DNA from: Thermoanaerobaculia bacterium | GTDB lineage: Bacteria; Acidobacteriota; Thermoanaerobaculia; Thermoanaerobaculales; Sulfomarinibacteraceae | NCBI GenBank assembly: GCA_027061805.1 | Contig: JAMOWA010000027.1 | Coordinates: 1 to 50,298, forward strand | Direction: 5' to 3' | DNA: 50,298 nt | Shown: positions 22,717 through 31,650 of the stretch, in pieces | How the letters are laid out: the number at the start of each line of letters is the position of its first letter | Position numbering within the stretch: the first letter of the stretch is position 1 | Made by a program: the position numbers and the translations under genes | Notes under the pieces: model-generated | What the model was told of the DNA's origin: nothing | What the model saw: only the letters and a program-made list of their open reading frames with translations | The model's database searches: none

Positions 22717-23220
22717 CTATTTCAGGTCCAGGAAGAGCCGGACGGTGGCCACACGCTGGCCGGACGAGAACACCGGGGCGTCGATCTCCAGCTGACCCGG
22801 CGCCGGGGGTGACTCCGCCACCACCACGTTCTCGACGGCGATCGCCTTCCGCGTGGCCTCGTCATCCAGCGCGCGGCCCCGGTACCGGAGGTCGGTGGCG
22901 GCCAGGACCTGACCGGCCTGGTCCACCACGAGAATGCCCGCCACACGCTGGCCCTGGACGATGGGGGTCAGGCGCGCCTCCACCAGGGCCAGGTTCCCGC
23001 GGGCGATGTCGTCCGCCAGGAGCACCGCCAGCGTGGTGGCCAGGTCCTGCCCCAGCCCCCGGATCACCTGCTCCTGCTCCTGCCGCACCCGGGCCAGCCG
23101 GGCGTGGGTCTCGGCGGTGATCCGCTCGATCTCGGCCGCGTGCTGGCGCTCGAGCACGAGGTAGCCGGCGGCACCGGCGAGGATCAGGACGGCAACCAGG
23201 ATCGCGAGGAAACGTTGCAT
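22717..23220 (-). CDS. Single-pass membrane protein with an extracytoplasmic sensor-like domain
   Basis: 167 residues. One N-terminal membrane helix (FLAILVAVLILAGAAGYLVL) is followed by a charged helix and a compact alpha/beta domain: VAGILVVDQAGQVLAATD, AIAVENVVVAESPP and PVFSSGQRVATVRLFLDL. The pattern resembles the extracellular Cache/PAS-type domains of chemoreceptors and histidine kinases, but no signalling output domain is present. It may sense a ligand for a partner encoded elsewhere. Start supported by GGGGGAGG. Confidence 0.6.
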   Translation of the reverse strand: MQRFLAILVAVLILAGAAGYLVLERQHAAEIERITAETHARLARVRQEQEQVIRGLGQDLATTLAVLLADDIARGNLALVEARLTPIVQGQRVAGILVVDQAGQVLAATDLRYRGRALDDEATRKAIAVENVVVAESPPAPGQLEIDAPVFSSGQRVATVRLFLDLK

Positions 23221-24617: not shown

Positions 24618-25006
24618 GATGTGATCCCGCAGCAACAGTGGTGGATGGACGTCGATTCCCGCGGCGTCGGCTCCCAGCCACCCGGAAGAATGAACCACGG
24701 GCTCCACGGATCTTTGGATCAACAAGAAGAAGATGGAAAGAACCCGAATACACGTTCGATTTCACGCCAGACCGATGGGTCCGTTCCACTGGAGAGTCGT
24801 GCACGAAGCTCGCGTTTCACCATCGGGTGGGTGGACTTCGTCCGGGGGTGGCGCCGTACGGGTGGCCGGGTGGGTGTCGCACCCCCTGTCCGTGACACGC
24901 CTGTGGCCCCGACACCGTTCCCGTCGGTGGTCGTGACCGCGCCCGGGTCCGTGACCATGCCCGGCGGCCCCGGTCTCGCCGCGAGGCCCCGAGGAACACG
25001 CGGGGT
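24618..25006 (+). other. Intergenic region with two kinds of dispersed repeat
   Basis: No gene is seen. The first part (24679-24775) is an inverted, shorter copy of the repeat at 31308-31525. The second part (about 24865-24965) is a degenerate patch of GTGTCGCACCCCC and repeated CCGTGAC-like units, similar to patches at 35175-35290, 35640-35690 and 41129-41215. Confidence 0.55.
24679..24775 (-). repeat. Dispersed intergenic repeat, copy C (empty-site form)
   Basis: Read on the minus strand it carries GTCTGGCGTGAAATCGA, then ATCTTCTTC..., then CCGTGGTTCATTCTTCCG, aligning with both flanks of the copy at 31308-31525 but without the roughly 117-bp core that separates those flanks there. Confidence 0.6.
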
Positions 25007-25061: not shown

Positions 25062-28000
25062 ATGGACAGGTGCAGGCAGTGGAGCCGCGGCGTGCTCCGC
25101 ATCACGCTGGCGGCCGTCCTCGCCGGGACCCTGCCGGCGTGCCGGGGAAACCCCGCACCGTCGGCCGGAGCGGTGGTGCTCTCGTGCGAGCCGGGATTGG
25201 CCGGTGCCCGGGCGGGGCTCGTGCCGGGGGACACGATCACGGGGTGGCGCAGGGGCGAGTCCGGGGGCGACATCCACACACCTTTCGACCTCGCCCGTGT
25301 GGAGCAGGCTGAGGCACCCCTGGGACCGGTGACGCTCCACGTCCGGCGGGGATGGAGAACCCGCAGGGTGACCCTGCCCCCGGATCCCTGGAAGGTCACC
25401 GCCCGCCCGGTGCTTCCCCCTCCCCTCCTGGAACGCTGCACCGTGGTCCTCGAACTCGAGGAATCCGGGAAACCCGAAGAGGCCACGGAGGCCTGGGAGG
25501 CCCTGGCGGAGCTCGCGGCTCCCGTGGATCCCGGCGCCGCCGCATGGTTCCGTCTCGAGGAGGGCATCGCCCTGGCCGCCGTGGAAGGCGACCGGGAGGA
25601 GGCCCTCACCGCTTTCGAGACGGGTGCCGGCTTGCTGGAACCGGCGCTGCGACCCTTCTTCTGGGAGCGTGCGGGTGACGCCCTCCTGGCATCCGGGCAG
25701 CGGAAGGTCGCGGGTGTTGCCTTCGAGAGGGCCCTGGAGCTCACCGGAGGACCGACCGGCGAATCCCCCGTCACCGCGCACCTCCTGCTCCAGCTCTGCC
25801 GCTCCGGCCGCCACCGGAACGAGGAGGAAGCTCGTGCGGCGCTCCGGATCTACCGTGGGATCGAGGGCGAGGGCCTCCAGACCGCCATGGCACTGCTCGA
25901 CCTTGCCCGGTGCCTGTACGTCCGGTCCCGTTACGACGATACCGAGAAGGCCGCTCGAGGAGCCCTGGTGATCGTGGAAGAGCGCTCCCCCGACTCGGCC
26001 CTGCTGCCCGTCATCGTGGACCTGCTGGGACTGGCCGCGTTGATGCAGGGGGAGGTCACCGAGGCCAGGGCGCTCTTCGCGAGGGAGCTTGCCGCCGCGG
26101 AACGGATCGAGCCGGCCGGTCCCCGGGCGGGTTTCGCCTGCAACCACCTGGGCCTGGCGGCCAAGGCCCTGGGTGACTACCAGGCAGCCAGGGGATGGTA
26201 CCTCCGCGCCCTGGAGATCTTCCGCCGCTGCCGGCCGGGGGGCGTGGAGGTGGCTGGCATGCTGAACAACCTCGGCAACCTCGCCATGAAACAGGACGAC
26301 TTCCAGGGCGCCCTCCGCTATCACGAGCAGGCCCTCGCGATCCGGGAGCGCCTCCACCCCGGCGGGATGGACGTGGCGGCCAGTCTGAACAACCTGGGCC
26401 TGGTCGAGCGCCAGCTGGATCACCTGGATTCCGCCCGGCGGCACCTGGAGCGGTCCCTCCAGCTGAAACGCCGCCGGGCCCCGGGCAGCATCACCCTCTC
26501 CAACACGCTCCTGGAGCTCGGCATGGTGGCCGGGCGGCAGGGCCGTTTCGAGGAGGCCTCGCGGCTCTACAGCGAGAGTCGCGCCATCCGCGAGAAGATC
26601 GCGCCGTCGAGCGCCATCGTCGCCGACGTCCTGATCATGGAGGGAGTGCTCGCCAGGGAGCGGGGGGATCCCCGGGAGGCCGAGCGCCTGTGGCGCGAGG
26701 CCGTGTCGAAGGTGGAGAAGGCCCGTGAGCGCTTCGGGCTGTCGGAGGACGCGAGGTCCCGCTTCGACTCCCGGTATTACCTGCTCTACGGAATGCTCGC
26801 CCGGTTGCTGGCACGGGAGGGCCGCGGCGAGGAGGGTTTCGCGCTGATGGAACGGGCCCGCTGCCGTGCACTGCGTGCTGCGCTCCAGGGAGCGCACACC
26901 ATTCCAGCCGGCGTCCCGGGACGTCTCTGGACCTCCTATCGCAGGGTCCTCCGGAGGATCGACCGGCTGGGCGGGGACCTCGCCCGGAGCTTCGGGTTCC
27001 CCGGCAGGACGGACGGCGAACCCGGAAGGATCGAGGAGCTCCGGCAGCTCGAGGAGACCAGGCAGCGGCTGGAAGCGGAGATCCTCGCCACGGCTCCCCG
27101 CCTCGGGGGGCTGCTCTCGATGACGGGACCCACGCTGGACGAGGTCCGGAAGACGCTCGAACCCGGAACGGTGCTCCTGTCCTGGGTGGTGGGTGAGACC
27201 GACACCACCCTCTTCGTGGTGGGGTCCGCCGGGGGCGGTGACGGGGGCCTCAGGACATACCAGATCCCCGCCGGGCTCGAGGAGCTGGAGCGCCGCGTGG
27301 AGATCCTCAACGCCTTCATCGCCCGCGGTGCCCGGACCGACCGGCTGGACCGGGCCCTGGTGGTCCAGGGGCGGGCGCTCTTCGAGCTCCTGCTGGGGCC
27401 CGCCATGAAGGACATCACGGCGGCCCGGAGGCTCGTCCTCGTGCCGGACGGGCCCCTCCGGCGAGCCCCCTTCAGCGCCCTGGCCCTCCCCGGTGAGGAG
27501 CTGCGCTTCCTCGGAACCTGGAAGCCCCTCTGCTTCAACCCCTCGGCCGGCGCGTTCCTGGCACTGAGGGCCCGCCGCCGGGAGGCGCCCCGGAGGGACG
27601 GTTCCACCCTGGTCGCCTTCGGGGACCCCGTGTACCCGGCGAGCTCCGCCGTGGTGCGTGAGCTCGGCCTGGAGCCTCTCGCCGCCTCGCGGGACGAGGT
27701 GGAGCGCATCGCCGCCGGTTTCGGAAACCGGGCGCGGGTCTGGTTCGGCCGGGAGGCCTCGGAGCACCGGATCCGGGAGCTCCACGGCCGGTTCAGCTAC
27801 CTCCACCTGGCTGTCCACGCCCACGCCGACACCAGGTTCCCGCTGCAGTCGGCGCTCTACCTCTCCATCCCCGGAGGAACGGACGCTGTCCGCGAGGACG
27901 ACGGCGTCCTCCACGCCTGGGAGATCATGGACGAGCTCCGTTTCCCCGTACGGGTCGTCACCCTCTCCGGGTGCTCCACGGGGCAGGGAGAGCGTGTCGC

Positions 28001-28274
28001 CGGCGAGGGGATTCTCGGCCTGGCCCGGGCGTTCCAGTACGCCGGGGCCTCCACGGTGGTCGCATCACAGTGGCCGGTGGGCGACCGGGCCACGGCGGAG
28101 CTGATGACCCGTTTCTACGCGGGGCTGAGGGAGGGGCTGGGTACGGCCGAGGCCCTCCGCGTGGCGCAGGAGGAGCTGGCCGCGGCGCCCCTCCACCTGG
28201 AGGGCGGCAAGGTCCTGGACGCCCGCCACCCCTTCCACTGGGCAGGGTTCCGGGTCAACGGGGACTGGCGGTGA
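25062..28274 (+). CDS. CHAT-domain protease lipoprotein with PDZ-like and TPR regions
   Basis: 1070 residues. An N-terminal signal ends in a lipobox-like LPAC (C27), so the protein is probably anchored outside the inner membrane. Residues about 34-105 look like a PDZ domain (EPGLAGARAGLVPGDTI, then GPVTLHVRRGWRTR). A long array of tetratricopeptide repeats follows, about 115-600 (GFACNHLGLAAKALGDYQAA, AGMLNNLGNLAMKQDDFQGA and more). The C-terminal 300 residues are a CHAT caspase-like domain with catalytic H919 in LAVHAHAD and C971 in LSGCSTGQG. Both catalytic residues are intact. It ends 20 bases inside the convergent anti-sigma gene, an arrangement that suggests the three genes belong together. 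Confidence 0.86.
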   Translation: MDRCRQWSRGVLRITLAAVLAGTLPACRGNPAPSAGAVVLSCEPGLAGARAGLVPGDTITGWRRGESGGDIHTPFDLARVEQAEAPLGPVTLHVRRGWRTRRVTLPPDPWKVTARPVLPPPLLERCTVVLELEESGKPEEATEAWEALAELAAPVDPGAAAWFRLEEGIALAAVEGDREEALTAFETGAGLLEPALRPFFWERAGDALLASGQRKVAGVAFERALELTGGPTGESPVTAHLLLQLCRSGRHRNEEEARAALRIYRGIEGEGLQTAMALLDLARCLYVRSRYDDTEKAARGALVIVEERSPDSALLPVIVDLLGLAALMQGEVTEARALFARELAAAERIEPAGPRAGFACNHLGLAAKALGDYQAARGWYLRALEIFRRCRPGGVEVAGMLNNLGNLAMKQDDFQGALRYHEQALAIRERLHPGGMDVAASLNNLGLVERQLDHLDSARRHLERSLQLKRRRAPGSITLSNTLLELGMVAGRQGRFEEASRLYSESRAIREKIAPSSAIVADVLIMEGVLARERGDPREAERLWREAVSKVEKARERFGLSEDARSRFDSRYYLLYGMLARLLAREGRGEEGFALMERARCRALRAALQGAHTIPAGVPGRLWTSYRRVLRRIDRLGGDLARSFGFPGRTDGEPGRIEELRQLEETRQRLEAEILATAPRLGGLLSMTGPTLDEVRKTLEPGTVLLSWVVGETDTTLFVVGSAGGGDGGLRTYQIPAGLEELERRVEILNAFIARGARTDRLDRALVVQGRALFELLLGPAMKDITAARRLVLVPDGPLRRAPFSALALPGEELRFLGTWKPLCFNPSAGAFLALRARRREAPRRDGSTLVAFGDPVYPASSAVVRELGLEPLAASRDEVERIAAGFGNRARVWFGREASEHRIRELHGRFSYLHLAVHAHADTRFPLQSALYLSIPGGTDAVREDDGVLHAWEIMDELRFPVRVVTLSGCSTGQGERVAGEGILGLARAFQYAGASTVVASQWPVGDRATAELMTRFYAGLREGLGTAEALRVAQEELAAAPLHLEGGKVLDARHPFHWAGFRVNGDWR

Positions 28275-28947
28275 TGTCGAAGGCCACGAGCTCCGATGGG
28301 ACGGGGGGGCCGCCACTCCCGGGAACGGCCAGCACCCTCCAGTAGTAGCGGCCGGGCGACCTCTCCACCTCCTGCGGCCACGGAATCCTGACCCCGGTGA
28401 CCTCCGTGCTCCTCCACACGGGGTTCCCGTCACCGTCCAGGAGCTCCACGATGTAGCCCCTCGCTCCCTCCACGGGCTTCCAGGCGAACCCGTCCGGCAG
28501 GCCGTCCAGACGGCCCACGGGCCCGGAGAGCTCCGGTCCCGCCACCGAGCCGGCCGTTCGAAGCGTGATCCGGTTCCCGTCCGGAGCGGTCACCCCGCCG
28601 GGCCCGGACTGTGGCCGCACCACCAGGAATGCGACGATGACGGCCGCCGCTGCCGCCAGGCCGGGGAGGATCATCCGCCACCGCCGCGGGGGAGCCGGCC
28701 TGCCCAGCTCCTCGACCGGCCGCGGCGCACCCGGGTCGAAGCTGTGGGCCTCCCGCCTCAGGGTCAGCACGCCGCGATAGATCTGGCTGCACTCCGGGCA
28801 GCCCAGGATGTGGTCCAGAACCGTCTGTTTCTCGGGGGGGTCCATCCCGTCGCTCGCGAGCCTCTCCCACTGCTCGTCGGAGAGATGCGCCGGATCCTCC
28901 GGCTCGATCCGGGCGTAGGCGGAACGAAGACGGTCCAGCTCAGGCAT
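28255..28947 (-). CDS. Transmembrane anti-sigma factor with a zinc-finger and a periplasmic Fn3-like domain
   Basis: 230 residues. The cytoplasmic end carries the ZAS/zf-HC2 motif H46, C50, C53 (HILGCPEC), which binds ECF sigma factors. One membrane helix lies at about 92-110 (a segment ILPGLAAAAAVIVAFLVV). The periplasmic part ends in a beta-sandwich-like domain with AWKPVEGARGYIVELLDG and RYYWRVLAV, typical of fibronectin-III-like folds. Its ATG lies inside the sigma gene (8-bp overlap), so both are co-translated. Its stop overlaps the CHAT gene from the other strand. Confidence 0.85.
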   Translation of the reverse strand: MPELDRLRSAYARIEPEDPAHLSDEQWERLASDGMDPPEKQTVLDHILGCPECSQIYRGVLTLRREAHSFDPGAPRPVEELGRPAPPRRWRMILPGLAAAAAVIVAFLVVRPQSGPGGVTAPDGNRITLRTAGSVAGPELSGPVGRLDGLPDGFAWKPVEGARGYIVELLDGDGNPVWRSTEVTGVRIPWPQEVERSPGRYYWRVLAVPGSGGPPVPSELVAFDITASPR

Positions 28948-29467
28948 CGATGCCCCCCGCCCGCAGCTCCCGTCGCAGGTCGGCCATTCCCCGTGCGATC
29001 AGGTTGCGGGCCCTGTTGTAGGTCCAGTCGAACATGTCCATGATCTCCCTCACCGAGAAACCCGCCAGGTGCGCCCGGACGGCCCGGCTGCGGTCTCCGC
29101 TCAGAGCCTTCAACGCCACGTCCACCTGGACCCCCAGCTCCCTGCTCTCCGCGATCTCCTCCGGATCCGGAACTCTCCTGACGCTTCCCGCAGCCACGAT
29201 CCCCTCACGCTCCCTCCTGGTGCGTTCCCTGCGGAGCATCCTGACGGTCTCGCGGACGGCCGTCCTGTAGATATAGGAGGAGGGATGGTGGATGACCTGC
29301 TCATCCCGGGTGGCCTTCCAGAGAGACAGCAGGACCTGCTGCTCCACGTCATCCAGCACGGCGGGGTCCTGCTCACCGGCCACACGCCTCACGACGGAGC
29401 GAATCAGGCGTGCGTACCTCGACACGAGCTCCTCGAAGGTGGAGGAATCGGCTGGCCTCTGGCTCAT
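28940..29467 (-). CDS. ECF-type RNA polymerase sigma factor
   Basis: 175 residues. Region 2 is DDVEQQVLLSLWKATRD with the helix before it (FEELVSRYARLIRSVVRRV), and region 4 is a helix-turn-helix HLAGFSVREIMDMFDWTYNRA then RNLIARGMADL. The linker is short, as in many ECF factors. It is transcribed with its anti-sigma factor and presumably drives its own operon and perhaps others. No -35/-10 site specific to it can be read with confidence upstream. Confidence 0.85.
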   Translation of the reverse strand: MSQRPADSSTFEELVSRYARLIRSVVRRVAGEQDPAVLDDVEQQVLLSLWKATRDEQVIHHPSSYIYRTAVRETVRMLRRERTRREREGIVAAGSVRRVPDPEEIAESRELGVQVDVALKALSGDRSRAVRAHLAGFSVREIMDMFDWTYNRARNLIARGMADLRRELRAGGIDA

Positions 29468-31228: not shown

Positions 31229-31307
31229 AGCTCCACGGCCGGGGATGGGGGGGCTCCCTCGTCTCACGTGTGCCACTTGCAGAACTCTCTGAAGGTCATA
31301 CCTGTCG

Positions 31308-31525
31308 GTCTGGCGTGAAATCGAGCGTATACCCGGATGTTCTTCTCCGAAGGGGAACGAAACGCACCAGACCGAGCCGCCAGGGCTCCGATGGCCAGTC
31401 ATCGGTGCAAGAACGCCCCGGCAATCTTGAGATTGCCAGTCGTCCGTGTCGGGGTGCTTTCCTTCGCCTTCGTATCTTCTTCCTGATCCGATAAATCCCC
31501 GGAATCCGTGGTTCATTCTCCCGGG
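31308..31525 (+). repeat. Dispersed intergenic repeat, copy A, with a nested 117-bp core
   Basis: The core (31352-31468) matches 46760-46875 at close to nine in ten bases. It contains two hairpins, CCGATG...CATCGG and GGCAATCT-TG-AGATTGCC. The flanks match copy C at 24679-24775 (inverted), where the core is absent. Confidence 0.65.
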
Positions 31526-31650
31526 TGGGTGGGGGGGCGTCCTCACCCCCTCTCCCCGGGAGACTTGCGCCATCCTCGTGGCCATGGCCGTCGAAGGCCG
31601 GTTTCACGGTCGAATCCGGCCGAGAGGGTGCCGACTCCCTGGTGTGGCGC

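Follow-up and report, generated by a model that had tools for sequence, protein, structure and literature searches.

The stretch analysed here (the window) comprises 50,298 nucleotides of contig JAMOWA010000027.1 (assembly GCA_027061805.1) from a Thermoanaerobaculia bacterium. It is contig 27 of a 3.1 Mb genome, the closest named relatives of which are Acidobacteriota metagenome-assembled genomes labelled Thermoanaerobaculales or Holophagae. Three genes of the window are considered: on the plus strand, a gene of a lipoprotein with a CHAT peptidase domain, and on the minus strand, the genes of a transmembrane (TM) anti-sigma factor and of a sigma factor of the extracytoplasmic function (ECF) type. 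The CHAT gene is a transcription unit by itself and runs convergently towards the sigma operon. It overlaps the anti-sigma gene by 20 bp (28255..28274), and the anti-sigma gene overlaps the ECF gene by 8 bp (28940-28947, minus strand); both overlaps had been described in an earlier reading of this DNA (the original prediction) and were confirmed by the open reading frames. We suggest that the trio is probably a proteolytic switch controlling the sigma factor.

The CHAT gene (25062..28274, plus strand; ATG start, stop at 28274) encodes a protein of 1070 amino acids, predicted to be a periplasmic cysteine protease of clan CD. The open frame reaches upstream to 24621; the start at 25062 was preferred because it yields a signal peptide with the lipobox LPAC and Cys27. 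This cysteine (25140..25142, plus), the predicted lipidation site, was invariant in 7/7 orthologs, which were 39–54% identical to the window protein (n=7). A PDZ-like domain (residues about 33–116; 25158..25409, plus) was recognized by profile match and by the order of strands and helices in the AlphaFold2 (AF2) model. Its Pfam match was weak (E 0.08 in the window protein and 0.0013 in one ortholog); a profile built from five sequences matched the PDZ domains of DegP/DegQ at 2e-5 among the top matches of a search against solved structures. The following residues, about 120–610, form a TPR superhelix (25419..26891, plus; Pfam TPR_12, 3.9e-36; AF2 model and VIA-align). The CHAT domain itself (27369..28262, plus) matched PF12770 at 8.5e-60, with 207 bits against a cut-off of 24. 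The catalytic residues His919 (27816..27818, plus) and Cys971 (27972..27974, plus) were each present in 7/7 orthologs and in 36/36 diverse CHAT domains. Both profile and dyad place the domain in the CHAT peptidase family, and the window protein is a predicted protease on these grounds. Asp1008 (28083..28085, plus), present in 35/36 CHAT domains and not kept in the aligned Csx29, is a candidate acid for an arginine-binding S1 pocket; this assignment is speculative. The CHAT domain of the AF2 model had a predicted local distance difference test score (pLDDT) of about 60, lower near Cys971, and was considered too weak, so no pocket geometry was taken from it.

The anti-sigma gene (28255..28947, minus strand) encodes a protein of 230 amino acids with an N-terminal zinc finger, one TM helix and a C-terminal domain. 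The zinc-finger motif H46-x3-C50-x2-C53 (28789..28812, minus) has the form HxxxCxxC; the Pfam match to zf-HC2 was below the cut-off (E 0.011, 16.2 against 22.2). The TM helix, residues about 93–109 (28621..28671, minus), was located by hydropathy. Together with the position of the gene, after the ECF gene and overlapping it, these features are those of a class I zf-HC2 anti-sigma factor. Behind the helix lies a periplasmic Fn3-like beta-sandwich (28258..28533, minus), modelled by AF2 with a pLDDT of about 90 and matched by Foldseek to Fn3 and CopC structures. The ECF gene (28940..29467, minus strand; 175 amino acids) matched the NCBIfam profile sigma70-ECF TIGR02937 above the curated cut-off (59.1 bits against 42.9). 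Sigma70_r2 of Pfam scored 40.6 (cut-off 24) and r4_2 stayed below its own cut-off; the protein consists of the sigma2 and sigma4 regions alone, as an ECF sigma factor does.

Much of the original prediction was thus borne out. The PDZ-like, TPR and intact CHAT parts (H919, C971) of the lipoprotein were all found by profile and alignment. The protein is predicted not to be cytoplasmic, given its export signal and the lipobox cysteine, and the Fn3-like domain of the anti-sigma factor, as modelled, lies on the same side of the membrane. Conservation of the neighbourhood in relatives, set beforehand as a test, was examined with each of the three proteins as a query over 80 related genomes. The trio was found at matching places in the same order and orientation in five of them (G004, G009, G012, G016, G018); in G014, the pair was cut by the contig, which ends inside the anti-sigma gene. 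The convergent overlap was exactly 20 bp in 6/7 orthologous loci, and the two genes were 3 bp apart in the seventh. Genes outside the trio differed between the orthologous loci. In a further relative (L108), the sigma, anti-sigma and CHAT genes follow each other in this order on one strand.

The link between CHAT and ECF genes extends beyond these orthologs. Among the ECFs closest to that of the window, 20/25 adjoin a CHAT gene, compared with 0/38 more distant ECFs, for which flanks of about 3.5 kb were taken on either side. When the CHAT alignment was the sole query, 80 loci from many phyla were obtained; an ECF gene was present within the flanks in 35/80, many of the contigs being short. In 40 further CHAT regions, containing 42 CHAT genes, an ECF gene was found within 2.5 kb in 20. 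The linkage recurs in differing gene orders and phyla. The rarity implied by the original prediction was therefore wrong: the link is common, and it has already been described for type III-E CRISPR, DdvA and ECF54. Three genomes of the same class (G119, G139, G142) contained about 50 CHAT candidates each. CHAT/ECF modules of a second type (L089, L091, L097; also L092 and L099) adjoin large secreted proteins starting near GTDLFLPSVGRG; these proteins may be targets or substrates.

The compartments of the CHAT protein and of its partner agree across these loci. If the ECF gene is followed by one for a TM protein, the partner CHAT usually has a signal peptide or a lipobox and in many cases an additional C-terminal TM helix; if it is followed by one for a soluble protein, the partner CHAT has no signal. 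By automatic calls, an export signal was present in 37/44 CHATs beside a TM anti-sigma factor vs. 2/10 beside one with no called TM helix (Fisher 2e-4). Reading the sequences revealed a signal, missed by the automatic rule, in five of the seven CHATs that form exceptions beside a TM anti-sigma; both counter-cases belong to a single locus, with two CHAT genes and one anti-sigma factor whose TM helix falls just short of the threshold. In a hold-out set, a TM helix was found in 17/17 anti-sigmas; the CHAT signal was called by the automatic rule in 10/17 and seen on reading in the remainder. The genome of the window carries both types. In addition to the exported CHAT and TM anti-sigma of the window, its contig 64 has a module (L220:4444-8329) of an ECF, then a soluble HxxxCxxC protein, then a CHAT without a signal. 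The soluble protein has a carboxypeptidase-regulatory-like domain (Pfam E 0.0012, below cut-off), and the stop of its gene overlaps the CHAT start. The same scheme seems to operate in the cytosol at related loci, where the anti-sigma factor is soluble and the CHAT protein lacks a signal peptide.

A second regularity concerns the linker between the TM helix and the Fn3-like domain, which had a pLDDT under 50. Its sole residue invariant in 7 orthologs is Arg130 (28558..28560, minus strand), in the context LRT. In nearly all other CHAT-linked anti-sigmas, too, an arginine stands at the N-terminal boundary of the C-terminal domain, irrespective of the type of domain: one Fn3-like clade has PVYRQQ, a soluble Burkholderiales clade with its further copies has LGLRS, TPR-type ectodomains have RG ahead of the first helix, and LLRGS precedes HEAT-like repeats. 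In four subfamilies with different C-terminal folds, this arginine was the sole linker column conserved at >=90%, joined in the TPR/HEAT group by the next glycine, conserved at 90% or more; lysine replaced it in none of the four alignments. In 78 contexts collected by eye, the residue before the arginine was mostly L, V or Y, and the one after it G or S. The fixed pattern [VILMFY]R[GS] occurred in 31/47 linked anti-sigmas vs. 18.7 in shuffles and was not enriched in unlinked ones. As these same data had suggested the pattern, a hold-out test was registered ahead of the retrieval of new loci; there the pattern occurred in 12/17 vs. 6.4 in shuffles (P 0.005), compared with 6/29 unlinked anti-sigmas (Fisher 0.001 against the hold-out). 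For a second registered pattern, P was 0.018 and 0.015. The looser R[GSAN], with any preceding residue, did not discriminate (17/17 vs. 15.8 in shuffles) and was rejected. From the controls, we removed one anti-sigma of the PVYR clade without an adjoining CHAT (G009:C13) because its contig ends about 1.4 kb away; a CHAT gene without an ECF lies on another short contig. Judged by these alignments, the boundary arginine, which CHAT-linked anti-sigmas share although their C-terminal domains are unrelated, appears to be the cut site.

Taken together, it is rather likely that the CHAT protein of the window acts as the site-1 protease of the anti-sigma factor, cutting it most likely after Arg130 and freeing the sigma factor. 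By means of its cytoplasmic zinc finger, as is usual in its family, the anti-sigma factor would keep the ECF sigma at the inner membrane, while the lipid-anchored CHAT protein would be stationed in the periplasm, on the inner or the outer membrane. Its PDZ or TPR part may receive the signal, and the Fn3-like ectodomain would be recognized as the substrate. The active cysteine would then cut the disordered linker, with conservation pointing to the bond after Arg130. Finally, a site-2 protease of the RseP type and cytoplasmic proteases would presumably finish the stump and release the sigma factor; the genome has one RseP-like M50 gene (5.6e-62). Of the original prediction, which placed cleavage of the anti-sigma factor or another partner at the centre, the proteolytic part is favoured by the compartment match and the common arginine; the implied rarity did not stand.

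Several points weigh against this interpretation. At this locus, the site itself is LRT, which the registered pattern does not cover, and the ortholog L085 has VRE. The P values are optimistic because the motif was first seen by eye and because there is some homology between hold-out and training loci. An unguided expectation-maximization motif search locked on the beta-sandwich signature YxWRV and not on the linker arginine; the case for the arginine therefore rests on the subfamily alignments and the fixed-pattern hold-out. Csx29 has no required cut-site residue, so arginine specificity is not a general CHAT trait. The compartment rule is partly confounded with phylogeny, as the cytosolic type is mainly from Burkholderiales and Phycisphaerales, plus the second module of the window genome.

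CHAT and caspase-like proteins frequently act as effectors, and the CHAT protein could accordingly be the output of the sigma factor and not its trigger: an ordinary site-1 protease would free the sigma factor, which would induce the CHAT gene, and the protease would attack envelope or phage proteins in defence or stress. Such a role fits the separate, convergent transcription unit of the CHAT gene, and an antiphage island is driven by DdvS, the partner sigma of the CHAT-containing anti-sigma DdvA (PMC12288465). No ECF-type promoter common to the CHAT and sigma genes was, however, seen in the orthologous loci, with sigma70-like -10 boxes noted by eye in the upstream regions; the compartment tracking of the anti-sigma factor and its common arginine would also be left unexplained. 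We regard this alternative as unlikely. Somewhat less likely still is that the CHAT protein acts by binding alone, its PDZ or TPR part holding the boundary arginine motif or the C-terminal domain and thereby altering the grip on sigma without a cut, or shielding the anti-sigma from another protease. PDZ and TPR domains serve in binding, short conserved motifs can act as docking sites, and TonB-dependent transducers can reportedly shield an anti-sigma factor from proteolysis (PMC11637429); but binding alone would not demand a catalytic histidine and cysteine invariant in 36/36 CHATs. That the neighbours are functionally separate and linked by an accident of inheritance is very improbable: the genes beyond the trio are not conserved, and the region as a whole is therefore without special order, but the CHAT/ECF linkage recurs across gene orders and phyla far above the rate for other ECFs.

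Cleavage of the anti-sigma factor by the CHAT protein thus remains the preferred interpretation at this locus. Its extension to CHAT proteases in general is more tentative, and we hold it with somewhat less than even confidence: these proteases may be a general bacterial device that switches ECF sigmas by arginine-directed anti-sigma cleavage, in a periplasmic form with lipid- or TM-anchored CHAT and a TM anti-sigma and in a cytosolic form with a soluble anti-sigma, with a cut motif common across unrelated C-terminal domains and with Craspase as a branch recruited from the cytosolic form. To our knowledge, site-1 proteases for regulated anti-sigma cleavage are known in a few model systems only. 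If the extension is true, one recognizable motif would predict both the protease and the cut site for many unstudied ECF systems of Acidobacteriota, Krumholzibacteriota, Gemmatimonadota, Bacteroidota, Planctomycetota and Burkholderiales. For a large share of the CHAT-TPR genes, which in this class reach about 50 candidates in a single genome, it would provide a first function, and it would hint at the origin of the sigma-factor arm of Craspase.

The genes flanking the trio encode an acyltransferase, a Cache-like protein and a transporter of the major facilitator superfamily (MFS; Pfam scan). The Cache-like match belongs to a small membrane protein near the acyltransferase gene (22717-23220, minus strand; single-Cache, Pfam E 0.00076, below cut-off). 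A consensus scan of the region gave no sigma-70 promoter and no terminators exceeding shuffles, and no RNA families were found in it. A dispersed intergenic repeat of ~180 bp lies at 24640-24820 (plus), immediately upstream of the CHAT gene, and at about 31300-31533 (minus); at least 39 further places in the same genome carry it at 72–82% identity (best 40 scored).

When the CHAT profile was compared with the PDB, DdvA was the best match (8rot, 8rw5; 5.5e-17), followed by Csx29 structures (about 4e-16) and, further off, separase (3e-5). DdvA was also the top Foldseek match of the full CHAT protein model, for which Foldseek and VIA-align gave mostly TPR matches. Separase cuts after arginine; it is eukaryotic and cuts cohesin, and for the window CHAT we infer a like specificity. 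With Csx29/Csx30, DdvA and ECF54 as precedents, CHAT control of ECF sigmas is already a known idea. In the open-licence literature, we did not find a description of a separate exported CHAT protease, the compartment rule, soluble zinc-finger or carboxypeptidase-like inhibitors, or the common arginine.

In type III-E CRISPR (Craspase), the TPR-CHAT protease Csx29 cleaves Csx30, which inhibits the ECF-like sigma factor CASP-sigma; the cut falls in a flexible loop, and the C-terminal Csx30 residues after that loop are needed for binding; its authors likened the pair to DegS-RseA (PMC10028731). The trio resembles this system in the pairing of a TPR-CHAT protein with an ECF sigma inhibitor and in the proposed cut in a flexible linker before the C-terminal part. 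Csx29 is, however, RNA-activated and works with Cas7-11, whereas the window protein is exported, lipid-anchored and equipped with a PDZ domain; unlike Csx30, the inhibitor is a zinc-finger TM protein, and no particular residue is required at the Csx30 cut site (427-429), in contrast to the conserved arginine of window-type linkers. No Cas7-11 (gRAMP) or other Cas gene was present among the flanking genes checked (acyltransferase, Cache-like, MFS transporter), as the original prediction of a CRISPR-free link had it. DdvA, paired with the ECF sigma DdvS (PMC4374960) that controls an antiphage island in Myxococcus (PMC12288465), likewise ties a CHAT part to the TM anti-sigma of an ECF sigma. There, both are in one polypeptide; at this locus, anti-sigma domain, TM helix and CHAT are not in one chain, and the CHAT and anti-sigma are encoded by two genes on opposite strands, so one can cut the other in trans. 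In ECF54, proteins with CHAT, subtilase and carboxypeptidase domains are conserved beside the ECF, and proteolytic control without an anti-sigma has been proposed (PMC8999054). A CHAT protein adjoining an ECF and proposed proteolytic control are, by this review's description, common to ECF54 and the trio; ECF54 was described as anti-sigma-free, whereas the trio has a zinc-finger TM anti-sigma. The missing inhibitor of ECF54 may be represented by the soluble middle proteins of the present loci, which are carboxypeptidase-regulatory-like and in one case carry a zinc finger.

The DegS/RseA/sigmaE system is similar in having an envelope-tethered periplasmic PDZ protease that cuts a TM anti-sigma, with RseP acting next. 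DegS differs from the window CHAT in being a trypsin-fold serine protease, unrelated in fold, with one TM helix and no TPRs; no trypsin-fold domain was detected in the window protein by the Pfam scan, and the PDZ-like domain is the one part that the two have in common. The proposed switch would correspond to DegS-RseA-sigmaE, but with a caspase fold, and to Csx29-Csx30-CASP-sigma, but in the periplasm and free of CRISPR.

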